Below, piece by piece: positions 49,806 through 56,974 of a stretch of DNA of 61,985 nucleotides. A program made the position numbers and the translations under genes. Source of the DNA: Prevotella sp. (lineage in GTDB: Bacteria; Bacteroidota; Bacteroidia; Bacteroidales; Bacteroidaceae). The DNA is taken from contig JAFTFG010000013.1 of NCBI GenBank assembly GCA_017449675.1, forward strand, positions 1-61,985. Reading direction: 5' to 3'. The stretch's first letter is position 1. The number at the start of each line of letters is the position of its first letter. The notes beneath the pieces are model-generated. The model saw only the letters and a list, made by a program, of their open reading frames with translations, had not been told where the DNA came from and did no database searches.

Positions 49806-50075
49806 TCATTTCGTGTAGTGATACCTCAGCGAGATGACATAGACGTAAATCATGCCACTGGCAATGGCATACACCAGTCTATGTTCATCAGTAATGCGGC
49901 GACTCCACAACCCGTGTTGTTCGCCTTTCAGTGGCTCTGGCTTGCCAATGCCTGTGAATGGATGTTTCTTAATATCTTCCAACAGGTCAGTGATGCGCTT
50001 CATGATACGCTTGTTACCCGTCCGTTTCCAGTATTCTCGGTCTTCCTGAGCACGGGGAGTGAAGATTACTTCCAT
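49806..50075 (-). CDS. YoeB family mRNA interferase toxin
   Basis: The 89-residue protein carries the YoeB/Txe pattern: VIFTPRAQEDREYWKRTGNK, KHPFTGIGKPEPLKGEQHGL, WSRRITDEHRLVYAI, and C-terminal VISLRYHYTK with the catalytic Arg, His and Tyr positions. It cleaves mRNA at the ribosome when freed from its antitoxin. Overlaps the antitoxin gene by 10 nt. Confidence 0.94.
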   Translation of the reverse strand: MEVIFTPRAQEDREYWKRTGNKRIMKRITDLLEDIKKHPFTGIGKPEPLKGEQHGLWSRRITDEHRLVYAIASGMIYVYVISLRYHYTK

Positions 50076-50305
50076 AATTCTTCCACTTTAACCACCTCGC
50101 CCCGTCCGTTCTTGATGTCCTCCTGTCCCTGTCGGATAATCTCAGCCATAGCAGGTGATGACATCAGATACTCCGTCTCGTCCATAGCCTGTTTCTTCGC
50201 CGTCAACTTCTTGGCGTACTTCAGCATCTTCGTCATCAGCGTCTCGTCCTCGGCGATGATACTCAACTGGCGGAACAACTCTGCATTCAATTCTAATGTC
50301 GTCAT
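50066..50305 (-). CDS. Antitoxin partner of YoeB
   Basis: I start at the ATG at 50305 (79 residues, MTTLELNAELFRQLSIIAED), because a TATTTTTG promoter at 50331-50338 lies between this and the upstream Met of the longer frame. The N-terminal half is a helix-rich dimerisation segment; the C-terminal half (SPAMAEIIRQGQEDIKNGRG) is the acidic toxin-wrapping segment. Upstream order antitoxin-toxin is classical. The family resembles RelB/YefM-like short antitoxins but without the standard Phd fold. Confidence 0.85.
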   Translation of the reverse strand: MTTLELNAELFRQLSIIAEDETLMTKMLKYAKKLTAKKQAMDETEYLMSSPAMAEIIRQGQEDIKNGRGEVVKVEELWK

Positions 50306-50330
50306 ATACGTAACATATTTTATTCGCATG

Positions 50331-50338
50331 CAAAAATA
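50331..50338 (-). promoter_or_regulatory. -7 box of the toxin-antitoxin operon
   Basis: TATTTTTG on the minus strand, 25 nt upstream of the antitoxin ATG. Confidence 0.55.
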
Positions 50339-50428
50339 AGAATATTTTCCGAAACAACAAAATATAAACAAATAAAGTTAATAGGTTAATAGTTTTTGCG
50401 AAATCCTTTTTTATGCGCCATTTTTGAA

Positions 50429-50545
50429 GGTGCCGCCTCCGTGCCACGAAGCCCGTACCTCCGAGGGCAGGATGTGCCACCTCCGAGGGTCGAAGGTACG
50501 GCCTCCGCAGGGAGGATGTAGGGGCTCCTTCCGTGAGGAGGCTCC
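50429..50545. repeat. GC-rich repeated patch in an AT-rich gap
   Basis: About 115 nt with several imperfect copies of CCTCCGAGGG and GGATGT units (e.g. GTACCTCCGAGGGCAGGATG, GTGCCACCTCCGAGGG, CCTCCGCAGGGAGGATGT). The rest of the gap 50372-50732 shows nothing else. A 135-codon minus-strand frame across it has no protein-like features and is probably spurious. Confidence 0.5.
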
Positions 50546-50732: not shown

Positions 50733-50876
50733 CTATAGTTTATCTATCCATTCAGGCTTCAACCACCAAACCAATGCAAATATTACAATATCTGCTGCAA
50801 TAATTGCAAATATCCAAGGACCAACCCAAAGGATAACCAACAATACTATCCAAACCCACTTTGCTAACTCATTCAT
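50733..50876 (-). CDS. Small membrane protein, 47 residues
   Basis: The product is MNELAKWVWIVLLVILWVGP, then WIFAIIAADIVIFALVWWLK and PEWIDKL. Nearly all of residues 7-39 is hydrophobic, enough for one long or two short membrane helices, with Trp/Lys at the ends. It has a TACCTTTG box (50916-50923) at 39 nt upstream. It lies downstream of the defence-like cassette but seems to be transcribed on its own. Function unknown. Confidence 0.6.
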   Translation of the reverse strand: MNELAKWVWIVLLVILWVGPWIFAIIAADIVIFALVWWLKPEWIDKL

Positions 50877-50915: not shown

Positions 50916-50923
50916 CAAAGGTA
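50916..50923 (-). promoter_or_regulatory. -7 box for the small membrane protein
   Basis: TACCTTTG on the minus strand. The left 17-bp direct repeat lies 12 nt upstream, in the position of the -33 element. Confidence 0.5.
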
Positions 50924-50934
50924 ATAGCTAACTG

Positions 50935-50951
50935 TGCAGGTTTTCTTCATA
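50935..50951. repeat. 17-bp direct repeat, left copy
   Basis: TGCAGGTTTTCTTCATA, identical to 54720-54736. The two copies enclose the receiver gene, the methylase-kinase gene and their promoter. Confidence 0.9.
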
Positions 50952-50959
50952 GTTGGAAG

Positions 50960-51886
50960 TTATCTAGCACTTCGAATTCTTTTTTCTCTTTTATCTTTAG
51001 TCTCCTGCTGATATTGCAGAACTTTTTTCTTTAACTCCTCTACTTCATACATCTGTAATGAAGGACACCAGTGTAAGATGTTGAGTAGATTTAGTATCAG
51101 ACTTTTATTTAGGTATGGGGCATCACCACTAACAATGTTTGCAGCAATTTCATCGGCATGAGAGCCATTGTTACAGACCTCTACGCAGAAGTGCATCGAA
51201 CGAGCTACATGAATCGGAACAAGTTGAGGTATTTCACCTAATGACGAACTACATTTTGCAATATTTGTTCCCGTAAATGCTATAGGGAGTAATCCTCGTC
51301 CATCAAAGTAACGCATCACCCATTCTATGATCTGGCGAACTCTATTTGGTATAGAAGGGTCTGTGTCGAATTCTTCTTGTTCTTGTCTGAGAAGAAGTTC
51401 TACTAAGTCTGAGTTCTTATAAAAGTTACACACAGATATGTATTCTTGACGGATTCTATATGAGTCATTATCTTGAACTGCTTTTTTGATATTTTCAAAT
51501 AACTCATATCGTTGTCTTGGCTTCTCATAATAAAGCCTATCATCGTACGAGCGTTCTTTTATCATATATTCTAAATGTTCAACGCCCTCGTAATCTCCCC
51601 CAGTATAAACAAACCAAGGAATATTTGTACGTAATTGTAGTAACTCTCCAATTGCATTTTGCAATGCTTTGAGAGATGGTTGTTCCTGCTGATCATCTGT
51701 TATCTTACAATTGGCGTCAAGAATAATGGCATCCCATGCCTTAGACTTGTCTTTTAGAGAACCCATGCCACTATTCACACATTTTACAGGAGTTATTTCT
51801 AGACCATTTTCATAAGCCTCATTCATGAAGTCCTCTTTGGGTTGGTCATCTACCCACAACACATTCAGTCTCACAATATCTTCCAT
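50960..51886 (-). CDS. Receiver-domain protein with unknown helical output domain
   Basis: The 308-residue protein begins with a REC domain (about 5-135): NVLWVDDQP (acidic Asp13/Asp14), IILDAN with phosphoacceptor Asp57, FVYTGG (Thr) and YYEKPRQR (Lys). All key residues are present. Residues 150-300 are helical and match no DNA-binding family known to me; the stretch ARSMHFCVEVCNNGSHADE loosely recalls the GN.xAH motif of HEPN-type domains. Its start overlaps the end of the methylase-kinase gene by one base, so this is the natural phosphotransfer partner. The output function is unknown. Confidence 0.82.
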   Translation of the reverse strand: MEDIVRLNVLWVDDQPKEDFMNEAYENGLEITPVKCVNSGMGSLKDKSKAWDAIILDANCKITDDQQEQPSLKALQNAIGELLQLRTNIPWFVYTGGDYEGVEHLEYMIKERSYDDRLYYEKPRQRYELFENIKKAVQDNDSYRIRQEYISVCNFYKNSDLVELLLRQEQEEFDTDPSIPNRVRQIIEWVMRYFDGRGLLPIAFTGTNIAKCSSSLGEIPQLVPIHVARSMHFCVEVCNNGSHADEIAANIVSGDAPYLNKSLILNLLNILHWCPSLQMYEVEELKKKVLQYQQETKDKREKRIRSAR

Positions 51887-54657
51887 TAGTCATTATCAAT
51901 TAAAGGTAAGACAATCTCATATTCAGTACAGAATCCTACAGGGTCTTTAAGATATTCATTCAACTTTATAGTTCCTCCATAATGTTCTACTATATCTTTC
52001 AGTTGCCAAGTGCCAATACCTGTACCAGAGCCATAACCCCAATCAAAGAATCGTTTTCTATCAACACTTGGGTGGATAGGAGTGCCATTATTAGAAATAT
52101 TAATTATTACAGCCTGATGGTTGTCAACATATCCATCTGACACCTCAATACGAATCACATAATCGCGCCTGACATTTTCTGTAAATCCCCATTTTGCAGC
52201 ATTAGCGATAATGTTGTCAAAAACAGTAGCCAAATCATTTTTGTTCACTTTAACAAAACGATCATTATTCAGATCGACCTCTCCTTCTTCGTAAATTTCT
52301 ATGTCTCTGTTGATATATACTTGAAACTGATATTTATCTGACACATGCTGCTTGGGAATCTCATTTACGTAATCATCAATGGAAATTTGTTCTGTTTGTT
52401 CCCAGTGGTCTTTTTCCACAAGATTAGTAATTAGATCCTCCACCTTTTCTTCAATAACACGTAATTTATTGAAATAACTATCAACGGTCTCACCTGTTCT
52501 TGATGCCACAACATCACTATCATGCAATACCCCCCCATTCTCCACTCTTCTTCTGTCTAACAAAGCAAGGGCTGGCCCAAATTCATTCATAACCTGCTGG
52601 ATACGGTGCTTGCGCTGACGGAGCATCTTAATATATTCATCATGGCGTTTGTCTCTCAATTCTGCAAGATCTACACCCATCTTTTCCAGATATGTAGTCT
52701 TCTGGTTTTCAGCAATACCTTTCTCTTTCTGAAGGAAATCTTTTCCATCAGGCACAAGAATTTGAAGAGAGAGGATGTCATACTGCTTAATTCTGTGTAG
52801 CGTAGAGCCCATTGCTTTGATACGCAGTTGCTCCTTGATATAGTCTTTTGAGAGTTCTCCAATAAGGTACTCTGCATTTACCTTCTTATCATTCAAATAA
52901 AAAGCCAACACGTTTGGGGAGATATAAGCGTCTTTGCCTTCTTTTGGAACAAACAAAGACGGTCTGAGTTCATTGATTGCAGATACGAGCAATGATTTCT
53001 TCTCCAAACGCTTATAATTTGAGTTCACGGTCTTGCTTCCCAATGAAGCATAGTCAATATACGGCAATTGATAATCTTTCACAAGGTCACTACTGGCAAT
53101 ATATTTTCCTTCTATCTCAAAACCAATGTTCATAGGTTCCCTTAGAGATATTAATTTATCCAGTCTTTCCAATTTGTATCCTTCAGGAATGGTGATATAA
53201 CTGGAGAAATAATTAGAAGGCGAAAGGTCATAATCATTTTCGCCGATATTACCATAAGTCTCAAAACATATACATGTATTGAATATAGTAGGAGTTAACT
53301 CACTGCATTCACCCAACTCTCCGAACGTGAATTCGTTATCTCCTTTTGGGTAATCATTGTGTTCTATAAGATTGGATATTGCAGCGACATTGAGCAAACT
53401 CCTCCCTATAACCATTTTAGTTGCATCAACAAACTTAACACGATTATTCTTTGAACCTTTTTCAACAAAGATAATAGCAGTACTAATTCGTGTAGTAGGG
53501 AAGATGTTTTCTGGTAGATAGACAATGTGCGATATCAAATGTTTGCAAACCAAATCCTTTCTTAAATCAAATGTATCCCTTCTTTTAAAGAACGACGTGG
53601 GTACAACTACTGCCATCATTCCATCGTCTGCTAACATCTTTACACCTCTACGCAATACGAAATGATCTGTATATTCTTTCTCCCCCTTTTCGTTGACAAT
53701 TTGAAGGTTGAAAGAAGGCGTACATAAAATATTGTTAACTGAACCATCAAACTCTTTGGTTGAATCACCAAGGATATAGTTGGGGCTATCCATGTGGTAA
53801 AACATGAGCCTTAATTTGCCAATAGCCCACGTGAGTTCATCTATCTCCTCCCCATAATAATATTCACCAAGTGAGTTCTCTGCATTAAAATAACTGTCAT
53901 TGTTGTAAAAATCGCACCATTCTTCCCCAACATCTTTTCTGAGACCATGGGCCATTTCAACATGATACGATGCTATACCAGCAAAAGGATTATATACAGA
54001 ACCGCCTTCATATTGACTTAGAATTATCCTTGTCAATTCTGTAGGCTGCATATAAAAGTTATTTGAAAACCTTTGTTGTCTATCAATAAAAGAATCAAAT
54101 AGTCTCGTATAATGGAATCCTGTTCTATAATCATTTTCACTTATAGCAGGGAATGCATTCAGCAACATTTCACATAACAGCCAAAATGCAGCAGGCTCAT
54201 CTGGCTGTGAACTATTAGCGTAAAGGATTTCTTTTACCTTATCAAAATCTTTGTTATTGACACACTCAAATACCATGGCATAAGGTAAAGATGGATTGTC
54301 AATGGTCCTTTTAACCATTTGAGCACAAGGCAACCAACAATCGCTATCGTATTTTTCAAGCCATGCTTTATTTGAAAAATCTATGCCCAAAATTGGTGCG
54401 ATTAAATCTATGATGGTTTTAGACTCTTTTACGGCTTGAACTGTAATCCCGAAAAAATCAACAATCTCTTCTGCTGTAATTCGAAACAAAACACGTGAAT
54501 CATTCTCGTCCACATCACTCTCGACCTTGAGCAATCCCTCCCTTGACAGATACATGATTAGCAAGGGCAAATATGTATTAGGGAATAATTTCATGAATGA
54601 ATCCAAAGAATTCTCAAAATTCTTCATGTCAATTCTCAGGTCAGCAAACTTCAACAT
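51886..54657 (-). CDS. Fusion of degenerate type I methylase, recognition-like domain and histidine kinase
   Basis: From ATG 54657 (a TTG at 54663 is also possible) the protein has 923 residues. About 180-460 follows HsdM-type N6-adenine methylases, but motif I reads YNPFAGIASYH (Asn223) and the catalytic NPPF motif reads CTPSF (312-316), so it is probably inactive. About 470-650 resembles an HsdS recognition domain (YISPNVLAFYLNDKK, IKAMGSTLHRIKQYDILSLQ). A helix with RQRKHRIQQVMNEFGPAL (His684) looks like a kinase dimerisation helix, and 740-923 is a HATPase domain (FDNIIANAAKWGF, Asn819; GSGTGIGTWQLKDIVEHYGG). AT-rich compared with flanks. Likely a sensor that uses a methylase scaffold to recognise DNA or SAM. 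Confidence 0.85.
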   Translation of the reverse strand: MLKFADLRIDMKNFENSLDSFMKLFPNTYLPLLIMYLSREGLLKVESDVDENDSRVLFRITAEEIVDFFGITVQAVKESKTIIDLIAPILGIDFSNKAWLEKYDSDCWLPCAQMVKRTIDNPSLPYAMVFECVNNKDFDKVKEILYANSSQPDEPAAFWLLCEMLLNAFPAISENDYRTGFHYTRLFDSFIDRQQRFSNNFYMQPTELTRIILSQYEGGSVYNPFAGIASYHVEMAHGLRKDVGEEWCDFYNNDSYFNAENSLGEYYYGEEIDELTWAIGKLRLMFYHMDSPNYILGDSTKEFDGSVNNILCTPSFNLQIVNEKGEKEYTDHFVLRRGVKMLADDGMMAVVVPTSFFKRRDTFDLRKDLVCKHLISHIVYLPENIFPTTRISTAIIFVEKGSKNNRVKFVDATKMVIGRSLLNVAAISNLIEHNDYPKGDNEFTFGELGECSELTPTIFNTCICFETYGNIGENDYDLSPSNYFSSYITIPEGYKLERLDKLISLREPMNIGFEIEGKYIASSDLVKDYQLPYIDYASLGSKTVNSNYKRLEKKSLLVSAINELRPSLFVPKEGKDAYISPNVLAFYLNDKKVNAEYLIGELSKDYIKEQLRIKAMGSTLHRIKQYDILSLQILVPDGKDFLQKEKGIAENQKTTYLEKMGVDLAELRDKRHDEYIKMLRQRKHRIQQVMNEFGPALALLDRRRVENGGVLHDSDVVASRTGETVDSYFNKLRVIEEKVEDLITNLVEKDHWEQTEQISIDDYVNEIPKQHVSDKYQFQVYINRDIEIYEEGEVDLNNDRFVKVNKNDLATVFDNIIANAAKWGFTENVRRDYVIRIEVSDGYVDNHQAVIINISNNGTPIHPSVDRKRFFDWGYGSGTGIGTWQLKDIVEHYGGTIKLNEYLKDPVGFCTEYEIVLPLIDND

Positions 54658-54700
54658 GCGCAAAACAAATTAAAAATCCAACATCAATTTCTTCTGGCTG

Positions 54701-54708
54701 CAAAATTA
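54701..54708 (-). promoter_or_regulatory. -7 box for the methylase-kinase and receiver genes
   Basis: TAATTTTG on the minus strand, 43 nt upstream of the ATG. It lies inside the repeat-flanked segment, so the module carries its own promoter. Confidence 0.55.
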
Positions 54709-54719
54709 CGTTCTAATTA

Positions 54720-54736
54720 TGCAGGTTTTCTTCATA
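54720..54736. repeat. 17-bp direct repeat, right copy
   Basis: TGCAGGTTTTCTTCATA, overlapping the stop codon of the nuclease gene. Same orientation as the left copy at 50935-50951. Confidence 0.9.
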
Positions 54737-55982
54737 ACTCAGGAATAATGTCATTATCTCCTTCTGGCGTACCTTTTTCCATGAGTCGTTTGGTCTCACG
54801 AAGTTCTTGCTGCAGTAGGCGCATGCGTTCCCGTAGTTGTTCCTGAGTAGGCAGAGCGTCCTTAATGCGAAGATTGTCATAGGTTGCAACGCCCATAGGA
54901 GTTTCAATACCACGAAATGACCATTGTACTTCCGTTTTGTTGAGGTCTGAACATATCAGCAGACCAATGGTAGGATTGTCATCGGGTGCTTTCACCAATT
55001 CGTCAACGGCATTAACGTAGAAGTTCAGTTTACCTGCGTACTCTGGTTCAAAGGGCTTGGCTTTCAGTTCGCATACAAGGTAGCAGCGCAGACGAATGTG
55101 ATAGAACAGAAGATCAATCTTGCGAGTACGCCCACCAACAATGATCTGCCGCTGCCTGCCCATAAAACCGAAACCTGTTCCCATCTCCAAGAGCATGGCA
55201 GTAATGTTCTTTGCCAAGGCTTCTTCCAATTCGTCTTCATCGTAGATATCATGACCGACTGTAGCAAAGCCAAAGTCGTAGTTCTCTTTCAGGACTTCCT
55301 GCACAAGTTTACTCTGAAGGGCAGGTAGATGGTCGGAGAAGTTGTTAACGATCTTTCCTTGGTGATCATAGAGGTTGGCTTTGATGCAGTTAGTAAGCGC
55401 ACTGCGGCTCAATCCTTGTTCTATTGTCTTCCCTATGTAGAATAATGCTTCGTCAATTGTTTCGCATTTGGATATGATTGCAATGTGATGCCCCCATGGA
55501 ATCAGTGCAAAGGGGAGAGGAAATTCAGCACCAACTTGTTGCAGTTTTGCGTTCTCCATTTCTCCAACAACCTGTTGGAGTTTTGTATGCATCTGATTAT
55601 CAAGAGAATATAATTCTCTAACAGATTGTTGGAGTTTTTGCTGAGAGCATGAATCGGTATAGAAGAGATACCACTTTTTCATAAACCAAAGATTACTGGT
55701 GGAAAAGCCTTTTTCATTTGGGAACTCCTTTTGCAGGTCAAGGCTCACTTGCTCCACCACACCAGCACCCCAACGCTCTTCTGCTTTTTTCTTCACAAGG
55801 TCACGTCCCAGTTGCCAGTTGAATAGCAACTTTTCCGCATTTACTTTGACAGCAGCCTTTACCTGAGCAGAGCGATAACGGTGTTTAATATCCGCTATCC
55901 ATTTGGCATAGTCATCATCCAAATGAATATCATGCGAGGTTACCATACGTGGCTTTCCTATATCGTATCCCTCTTTTTTCAT
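54732..55982 (-). CDS. DUF1016 (YhcG) PD-(D/E)XK nuclease family protein
   Basis: The 416-residue protein has the DUF1016 N-terminal domain (YAKWIADIKHRYRSAQVKAA, NWQLGRDLVKKKAEERWGAG) and the C-terminal nuclease domain with Asp290 (RKIDLLFYH) and Glu305-x-Lys307 (VCELKAKPFEP). Between them, residues 120-160 contain three Gln-Gln-Val/Ser repeats (KLQQSVREL, KLQQVVGEM, KLQQVGAEF). DUF1016 proteins are often near restriction-modification and defence genes. Start overlaps the WYL gene stop (ATGA), so they are coupled. Confidence 0.9.
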   Translation of the reverse strand: MKKEGYDIGKPRMVTSHDIHLDDDYAKWIADIKHRYRSAQVKAAVKVNAEKLLFNWQLGRDLVKKKAEERWGAGVVEQVSLDLQKEFPNEKGFSTSNLWFMKKWYLFYTDSCSQQKLQQSVRELYSLDNQMHTKLQQVVGEMENAKLQQVGAEFPLPFALIPWGHHIAIISKCETIDEALFYIGKTIEQGLSRSALTNCIKANLYDHQGKIVNNFSDHLPALQSKLVQEVLKENYDFGFATVGHDIYDEDELEEALAKNITAMLLEMGTGFGFMGRQRQIIVGGRTRKIDLLFYHIRLRCYLVCELKAKPFEPEYAGKLNFYVNAVDELVKAPDDNPTIGLLICSDLNKTEVQWSFRGIETPMGVATYDNLRIKDALPTQEQLRERMRLLQQELRETKRLMEKGTPEGDNDIIPEL

Positions 55983-56974
55983 ATCCTGTTGTATTGCTGA
56001 TTCATTGATAGAATTTCTTCCGCTATTCTCATTCTGAAGCCTTCGGGAGAGAGCACTTCCATATCATTACCAAAAGAAAGCACAAGGGCTTCAAGTTCTT
56101 TGTTGATCTTCACGTTGATAGAGATTACCGAAAAGTAATCGTTCTCTTCCATGATATGCTGAGAAAGGTGTAGCGGTTTAGTACGGATATACTCAAACCG
56201 GGGCTTACTGATGCGAAGAACGATGTCTTCCGAATTACTTTCTGGTACTGTCACGCCAACCACATCATCAAAATATTCTGAGAAATCAACGCCTGACTCT
56301 CTATAGGGAATTGCGACTTCTTCGAAATTGTCAATCCTGTCAAGTGCATAGTGGGCATAGTTCTGGTACCCTTTTCTCTGTGCAATAAGATACCAGCGAT
56401 CATTGTATTGTTTCAGGTGATAGGGAAAGATAGTGACAGCCTGAGTATCTTTGCCATAAGGGGTGTAGTGAAGTTTTAGAACTCGCTTGGTGATGATAGC
56501 ACGAAGCAGGTCGGAGAAGTGTGACAATCCCTTCAAATCGGGATTGAACTGGAATGAGACGACGGGTGAGGGGTCTTCATCGAGATATCCTCCTTCAATC
56601 TGCATGAGTAAGGAGCGTGCCCAGTCATAAAGGGGTTCACCTTCAAACTCCTTCAATACATAGATGGCATCTTCTATCTTATCGCGCTCTTCATCATTCA
56701 TGCGAAACAAGGGAATACTATAGTCTATGTCGCAGTAGCGATACAGACGTTGGCGTCCTCGTTTCATGGTCTTATCCAGTCGAATGCCGTATTCTGTCTC
56801 TAAGTTCGTAATGTCGTTCTGAATAGTTCGTTTGGATACAGGGGTACTGTCAGCCTTCACCAATGCCACATTGCACACATTGACGAGATCGTCGATAGTG
56901 AATTCCTTATATCTGTTCCTGAAACATTTGTTCAGAACTTGATATCTGAGCAGTACTTGTCTATCTACAGGCAT
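55979..56974 (-). CDS. WYL domain transcriptional regulator
   Basis: The 331-residue protein has an N-terminal winged helix (about 1-70; VSKRTIQNDITNLETEYGIR), a WYL domain with RWYLIAQRKGYQNYAHYALD near 195, and a C-terminal WCX-type segment. WYL regulators such as BrxR and CapW control phage defence loci and respond to nucleotide ligands. It is first in the operon with the DUF1016 nuclease and has a TATCTTTG box at 57003-57010, 28 nt upstream. Confidence 0.92.
   Translation of the reverse strand: MPVDRQVLLRYQVLNKCFRNRYKEFTIDDLVNVCNVALVKADSTPVSKRTIQNDITNLETEYGIRLDKTMKRGRQRLYRYCDIDYSIPLFRMNDEERDKIEDAIYVLKEFEGEPLYDWARSLLMQIEGGYLDEDPSPVVSFQFNPDLKGLSHFSDLLRAIITKRVLKLHYTPYGKDTQAVTIFPYHLKQYNDRWYLIAQRKGYQNYAHYALDRIDNFEEVAIPYRESGVDFSEYFDDVVGVTVPESNSEDIVLRISKPRFEYIRTKPLHLSQHIMEENDYFSVISINVKINKELEALVLSFGNDMEVLSPEGFRMRIAEEILSMNQQYNRI

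Follow-up and report, generated by a model that had tools for sequence, protein, structure and literature searches.

Two-component logic in bacterial defence is already represented by Detocs, which consists of DtcA, DtcB and DtcC. Soluble kinase-like and receiver-like genes lying side by side near restriction-modification genes have been described as HEF_HK (PF19191)/Response_reg_2 (PF19192) pairs, which are over-represented in this setting and whose function is left open in the available text of the source (PMC8011034). In CapK/CapS, the target of an HTH-STAS-GHKL kinase is a conserved serine in a STAS-winged helix-turn-helix (wHTH) repressor, and the kinase controls expression of the immune operons next to which it lies, according to the available text of PMC13373217. 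Here we describe a gene pair from a 61,985-nucleotide contig of Prevotella sp. (JAFTFG010000013.1, assembly GCA_017449675.1; "the window" refers to the whole of this stretch), in which a methylase-like protein fused to a histidine kinase is followed by a receiver protein. The pair is probably a switch controlling defence, with its relatives in other Bacteroidota lying mostly beside virus-defence genes, and its parts are located as follows.

51886..54657, minus strand: methylase-kinase, 923 aa, with its ATG at 54657; the frame opens with TTG as 51886-54663
53401-54093, minus strand: N6_Mtase part of the methylase-kinase (aa 189-419, Pfam)
52738-53193, minus strand: HsdS-like part of the methylase-kinase (aa 489-640, PADLOC)
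52606-52608, minus strand: H684 codon of the methylase-kinase
51946-52242, minus strand: HATPase_c part of the methylase-kinase (aa 806-904, Pfam)
50960..51886, minus strand: receiver protein, 308 aa, with a receiver domain at about aa 1-130 and then a helical output domain
51716-51718, minus strand: D57 codon of the receiver protein

The two frames overlap by one base, and their limits agree with the original prediction, an earlier annotation of this stretch. From Detocs the pair appears to differ in its sensor and effectors, and the window receiver has no match in PADLOC, in a version whose Detocs models are unconfirmed. MADS comprises MAD1 to MAD8, and membership is not supported here, with only methylase- or S-type matches found (PADLOC mad2 4.1e-10 and mad5 1.3e-7; NCBIfam MADS5 15.9 vs 400 bits). 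The side-by-side placing of soluble kinase-like and receiver-like genes near restriction-modification genes resembles that of the HEF_HK/Response_reg_2 pairs; however, HEF_HK N-termini are mostly GHKL HATPase_c_3 domains kept in company mainly with type II systems with C5 methylases (PMC8011034, as far as its available text goes), whereas the methylase-kinase has an HsdM/HsdS pseudo-enzyme input and mainly type I company. Neither window protein matches PF19191 or PF19192 at E<=1 in Pfam. A GHKL kinase beside immune genes is also reminiscent of CapK/CapS (PMC13373217, available text), in contrast to which the window pair combines a histidine kinase with an Asp receiver. That this is no named system, as first suggested, holds among Pfam, PADLOC and NCBIfam families (for the kinase in PADLOC, the best 25 of 41), and among the open-licence papers listed, including PMC12839542, PMC7824862, PMC7641849 and PMC12707154, none describes such a fusion; preprints lie outside that scope, so that a description may exist elsewhere.

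Comparison of the window protein with 296 genomes of the phylum returned the window and six relatives, with one more on a Myroides plasmid, and all seven relatives have a receiver gene next. A pattern scan of genome contigs yielded 54 loci, from which four duplicate genomes (L062, L094, L096 and L105) were removed, and the comparison set used throughout comprises 67 methylase-kinases, namely 50 scan loci, 14 of 15 further regions, L010, L011 and the window; L056, with a frame under 640 aa, was left out of the counts. The loci are mostly named as Bacteroidota, with L101 named Fibrobacter and L089 named Algicola, a gammaproteobacterial genus; the L089 protein is 91% identical to a Winogradskyella one, so bins may be misnamed. 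A receiver gene lies next, on the same strand and at a gap of -20 to 22 bases, in 64 of the 67, the three others being cut off by contig ends (L082 and L084) or having a split frame (L074). The survey of homologous pairs proposed with the original prediction returned a recurrent pair, many copies of which lie beside restriction genes.

In the methylase-kinase, Pfam places N6_Mtase (E=1.3e-17) and HATPase_c (E=1.8e-7) above their curated cut-offs, and PADLOC Specificity_I covers aa 489-638 (E=6.2e-9). An alignment of 61 family methylase-kinases (A8), used as a profile against solved structures, matches HsdM (3lkd, E=1.2e-55, profile 10-413), HsdS structures (E=1.6e-16 and 1.8e-16, the latter being 3okg with its best stretch at 484-560) and histidine kinases (4i5s, 3.5e-13, 566-817; 2c2a, 3.9e-12, 557-799), with these matches consecutive along A8 and the kinase part directly after the HsdS-like part. 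These comparisons recover the N-domain of HsdM, the methylase fold and the S-like domain, in agreement with the HsdM-like, HsdS-like, histidine-helix and HATPase segments first proposed for this one protein. A profile of 29 C-terminal parts likewise matches 4i5s (1.2e-12) and 2c2a (6.9e-12), with the family histidine aligned to the HELRTPL histidine in 4i5s and 4jas, and a third printed alignment beginning past the histidine. This phosphoryl-site histidine, H684 in the window, is kept in all 67 methylase-kinases, and the presence of a DHp with H box and of the N, G1 and G2 boxes of the ATP domain places the protein among the two-component histidine kinases. A GHKL ATPase of another type, named originally as grounds for rejection, was ruled out for the MORC and MutL types, with the DHp and ATP domain matching histidine kinases. 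The fold and order of M plus half S, in one chain, are those of type I HsdM/HsdS (3lkd, 3okg), from which the protein differs in its changed motif I, relaxed motif IV and fused kinase, and in the window in having no hsdR adjoining. At L055 (7372-9963), the methylase-kinase carries an N-terminal HARE-HTH match (Pfam 1.6e-5, 25.6 bits vs a cut-off of 25.9), which the N-termini of L052 and L053 resemble by eye.

The description of the methylase as degenerate suits the window protein better than the family as a whole. With YNPFAGIASY as motif I and CTPSF as motif IV, the window protein has neither the D-P-x-x-G-x-G nor the NPP[FYW] of a type I HsdM, whereas motif IV across the 67 members reads NPP[FYW] in 31, [DS]PP[FYW] in four and otherwise in 32. 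HsdM proteins of the same loci retain NPP[FY] in 54 of 54, and in view of this difference catalysis is not kept across the family, although methylation by some of its members is still possible. Fifty of the 67 rows came from a search with a motif I pattern, which biases their motif I counts; among the remaining 17, motif I reads N-P-x-x-G in 11, D-P-x-x-G-x-G in two and otherwise in four, and motif IV reads NPP[FYW] in two (97% identical proteins), [DS]PP[FYW] in one and otherwise in 14. The original prediction would have been countered by homologues that all combine an intact NPPF with restriction subunits, and only half of that picture is found, with hsdM downstream in 51 of 67 but NPP[FYW] in only 31.

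The receiver is less readily named. Pfam Response_reg has no match to the window receiver, and only two of 62 family receivers match at E<=0.1. A profile of the 62 receivers nonetheless matches the solved receiver 3jte (3.9e-5) with the phospho-Asp aligned, and all of 64 receivers retain D14, D57, T/S95 and K122, position 13 being D in 61 and E in three. The window receiver has D13/D14, D57, T95 and K122, the residues expected of a response regulator, and the claim of a complete phosphorylation site stands. In the output domain R184 and H243 are kept in 64 of 64. Most relatives are longer than the window receiver, with an additional C-terminus that weakly matches OB/cold-shock domains. At L168 (2438-3382), a family receiver is fused to SLFN_AlbA_2 (Schlafen AlbA_2, E=6.4e-15) in place of the usual output domain, and the output can thus be an effector-type domain.

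Kinase and receiver co-vary along the presumed signal path. Among 134 pairs of loci with an S-like identity of at least 60%, the kinase half has been exchanged in 33 (mean identity 29%; DHp 22% vs 83% in the 101 others), and in these 33 the receivers are 31% identical vs 75%, and the receiver domains 33% vs 89%, with a smaller shift in WYL (55% vs 62%) and HsdM at 31% vs 44%. Identity in DHp varies together with that in the receiver domain (partial r 0.53-0.64, reached by 0 of 200-300 permutations), and not with that in the output domain (partial r 0.04 to -0.13), whilst the WYL protein co-varies with the output domain (0.25, 0/300) and not with the receiver domain, a preference that linkage cannot produce and shared descent could. 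Furthermore, a 498-aa protein at L132 (8222-9718), directly behind a WYL gene and with no kinase and no receiver, joins a sensor half (profile 247-517, 4.5e-40) to an output domain (134-303, 9.1e-17). We take it to be a natural one-component form, linking sensor half and output domain independently of the co-variation of the pair. Such a fusion is expected if a relay connects the two, and it makes a two-component switch slightly more likely and a functionless remnant less so.

Within the wider locus, WYL lies at most four genes upstream in 57 of 67 (adjacent in 50), and within eight genes downstream are found hsdM (51/67), hsdS (50/67) and hsdR (35/67), with the hsd genes upstream at L073 and L080. 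Typically, the genes run in the order WYL, methylase-kinase, receiver, hsdM, hsdS and hsdR. The effectors vary, and include hsd genes, YhcG (L050, L060, L068 and L133), RloB (L130) and the receiver fused to SLFN_AlbA_2; DUF4268 is found at L125. The window order is WYL, YhcG nuclease, methylase-kinase and receiver, with no hsd genes adjoining the pair and no hsdR labelled within the window.

54732..55982, minus strand: YhcG/DUF1016 nuclease-family protein, 416 aa (PADLOC PDC-S02), with PD-(D/E)xK-like ID...ELK present
55979..56974, minus strand: WYL-WCX regulator, 331 aa, with a 4-base overlap with the YhcG gene and a weak HTH match

In Pfam, the WYL protein matches WYL (5.7e-15) and WCX (6e-10) above their cut-offs and HTH_11 (0.0037) below. 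The same order recurs in the same genus at L133, where YhcG is 28% identical to that of the window. The window WYL is closest to that of L125 (68%), and the window kinase and receiver are closest to those of L107 (47% and 78%), whose WYL is 35% identical to the window WYL; on these identities the window locus is best described as a mosaic, with WYL and pair from different lineages.

A 17-bp exact direct repeat flanks the window pair and, with up to two mismatches allowed, has no third copy in the genome, which is 54% complete. Its reading as an insertion mark of the pair was dropped, as the repeat is part of a recurring promoter element, TG[AC]AG-N5-[CT]TGCA followed after 10-13 nt by TAnnTTTG, which we take to be the Bacteroidota promoter box.

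54701..54734, minus strand: putative operator-promoter element, copy 1, TGAAG-N5-CTGCA with 11 nt to the box (TAATTTTG), 44 nt ahead of the methylase-kinase start
50916..50949, minus strand: element, copy 2, after the receiver gene

The pattern occurs 23 times in 28 loci (27 from the genus plus L106, 382,757 bases in total), which were chosen by similarity to WYL or receiver and are not a genome-wide census. Dinucleotide shuffling of 27 of these loci, repeated 20 times, gave no match (L155 omitted for an ambiguous base). It was drawn from eight copies in six of the 28 loci, with nine of the 23 matches lying outside those six. Sixteen of the 23 end 18-44 nt ahead of a called frame of at least 60 aa, including genes after WYL, kinase genes and hsdM, and the remaining seven are farther off, are unplaced or lie on the strand opposite to another copy. 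At L125, DUF4268, kinase and hsdM each have a copy ahead of them; copies in the genus include those at L125 12412-12445, L126 12062-12095 and L129 5291-5324, and L101, L082, L086 and L088 have a single match each. The TGCAG-N5-CTGCA palindrome thus recurs in WYL-associated loci of the genus at a nearly fixed distance from the TAnnTTTG box. WYL at a defence locus and inverted repeats with a 5-bp spacer are shared with the BrxR/CapW regulators, whose repeat arms are 11 bp (PMC9122601, available text); in contrast, the arms here are 5 bp, lie just ahead of the box, and precede several units of one locus. At L154 (8592-10157) and L157 (6019-7785), the first gene behind WYL and behind this promoter element encodes an AAA_15 ATPase, and hsd genes follow at a greater distance.

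Taken together, these comparisons make it rather probable that the pair is a cytoplasmic two-component switch that has a pseudo-methylase as its input and is connected to a defence locus headed by WYL. Across Bacteroidota it is best read as a two-component module that is conserved, takes its input through a part resembling a restriction enzyme and is tied to such loci; the architecture, kept residues, gene pair, DHp-receiver co-variation, sensor-output fusion and recurring element, each established by comparison, all argue for this. A pseudo-enzyme equivalent to one HsdM and half an HsdS would be fused directly to a histidine-kinase core, and a signal at the methylase/specificity half would alter kinase activity, with the kinase autophosphorylating at H684 and the phosphoryl group presumably passing to receiver D57. 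The output domain would then act on the locus, most likely via the WYL regulator at TGCAG-N5-CTGCA promoters, or alternatively directly on the effector, YhcG in the window and the type I restriction system in most relatives; we infer both the WYL link and the direction of control. The input domain is itself a restriction-enzyme look-alike, and it forms one module with a WYL regulator and effectors that can be exchanged. If the proposed switch operates, phosphorylation would control restriction and other defences in such Bacteroidota through a sensor open to direct assay, with a soluble kinase and with the kinase histidine, the receiver Asp and a predicted operator all specified.

Several observations weigh against this switch. 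The G1 box reads NNG rather than DxG, the output domain has no convincing Pfam or PDB name (in Pfam, among the best 25 of 36 families), and in 10 of the 67 loci the four upstream genes include no WYL. The 33 exchanged-kinase pairs are not independent, with L059 and L064 in 13 each, and linkage between DHp and receiver, which are neighbours, explains part of their co-variation. That between WYL and output is weak under full control (0.16, 1/200; non-redundant 0.13, 9/200), and binding of WYL to the element is predicted from position. Additionally, the genome is 54.4% complete, so that hsd genes elsewhere are possible, and one HsdM-like frame lies on another contig.

The methylase half could instead read methylation of the adjoining restriction system's own target, restraining restriction until the host is protected. 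The HsdM N-domain, methylase fold and S-like domain, the frequency of hsdM downstream and the intact motif IV of 31 members are compatible with this, as is the pair L010/L104, in which S-like parts (94%) and HsdS (82%) are both alike. However, identity in the S-like part does not correlate with identity in HsdS when all loci are taken (Spearman 0.03; partial -0.02 to -0.04), with S-like parts 96% identical at L048/L049 and 92% at L083/L089 beside HsdS proteins of only 41% and 47%, and 85% at L068/L077 beside unrelated hsd sets (HsdS 27%, HsdM 31%). Matching of the sensor to its own restriction target is therefore unsupported overall, L010/L104 being the one close-pair exception, and of the originally proposed phosphotransfer sensor of DNA sequence, methylation or S-adenosylmethionine (SAM), the pair, the methylase/specificity-like input and the tie to defence loci stand by comparison, whilst the reading of the own target does not; SAM or a different DNA feature would be a candidate signal. 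The N-terminus tracks HsdM only weakly (partial r 0.14, 5/300 permutations). Comparison of the window proteins with those of L107 shows the greatest divergence in the sensor (30% identity in the S-like part, 37% in the N-terminus) and the smallest in the signalling parts (67% in HATPase, 78% in the receiver); elsewhere among close pairs, variation is greatest in the N-terminus and the S-like part is conserved. As neighbouring HsdM proteins keep a motif IV that the sensor does not, and the window pair has no adjoining hsd genes, own-target reading is quite doubtful.

Phage anti-restriction proteins include Ocr, ArdA and SAM-destroying enzymes, and the pseudo methylase-specificity half may be an integrated decoy that baits them, with the kinase raising an alarm when restriction is blocked. 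Its resemblance in shape to a type I enzyme, its relaxed catalysis, its lack of dependence on target specificity, and the company of type I systems and other effectors would fit, but several loci, including that of the window, have no adjacent restriction system to guard, and we consider such a decoy rather improbable. Unlikely, too, is a fuller version, in which a decoy pseudo-complex dimerised via the kinase bundle would sense phage interference with type I restriction (a DNA mimic or SAM loss) and fire a second defence by phosphorelay, with YhcG, Schlafen-type, RloB and small membrane effectors as the second line. Lastly, the window locus could be a remnant in which the hsd operon was lost and the leftover pair is functionless. 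The closest relative of the pair, L107, has hsd genes, WYL and pair are of different lineages, and the second element is closely followed by a 47-aa frame only; however, both frames are open with all signalling residues present, and L133 repeats the WYL-YhcG-kinase-receiver layout with a divergent YhcG, making a remnant very unlikely.

A methylase-profile search matched 100 of 395 genomes of the class at E<=1e-30 (best two candidates per genome), mostly plain HsdM, from which nine new places with kinase reach were taken; L155, labelled a methylase-kinase by the profile, is in fact a plain HsdM. A receiver-based search of the genus was positive in 11 of 100 genomes, the window's included, with a family kinase gene directly upstream of 10 of 10 receivers in nine regions, of which L132 has no receiver, and a search of the phylum was positive in 13 of 395 genomes, with the pair in four of four newly seen regions. 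The L127 kinase and one of two L133 kinases have no methylase half; the latter, a second kinase of 435 aa with its own receiver (L133 5702-8167), lies directly behind the methylase-kinase pair. Among viral contigs, 45 pattern matches included no relative by tblastn, and four phage records matched, of which the first, L011, is a human-faecal scaffold without annotation that carries WYL, kinase, receiver and hsd genes and is perhaps bacterial or prophage DNA. Of plasmids, only three from Myroides extend into the kinase part among the best 20 of 179 matches.

Beyond the receiver gene, a small hydrophobic frame lies behind the second promoter element.

50733..50876, minus strand: possible 47-aa membrane peptide, coding status unproven

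A 43-aa look-alike ending in KPEW occupies the same place in L107, between receiver and hsdM. Just past the locus, the window carries a toxin of YoeB type (49806-50371; Pfam 1.9e-30), upstream of which lies an antitoxin-like frame, and three tandem 22-nt GC-rich repeats (50457-50522) lie between the locus and this toxin pair.

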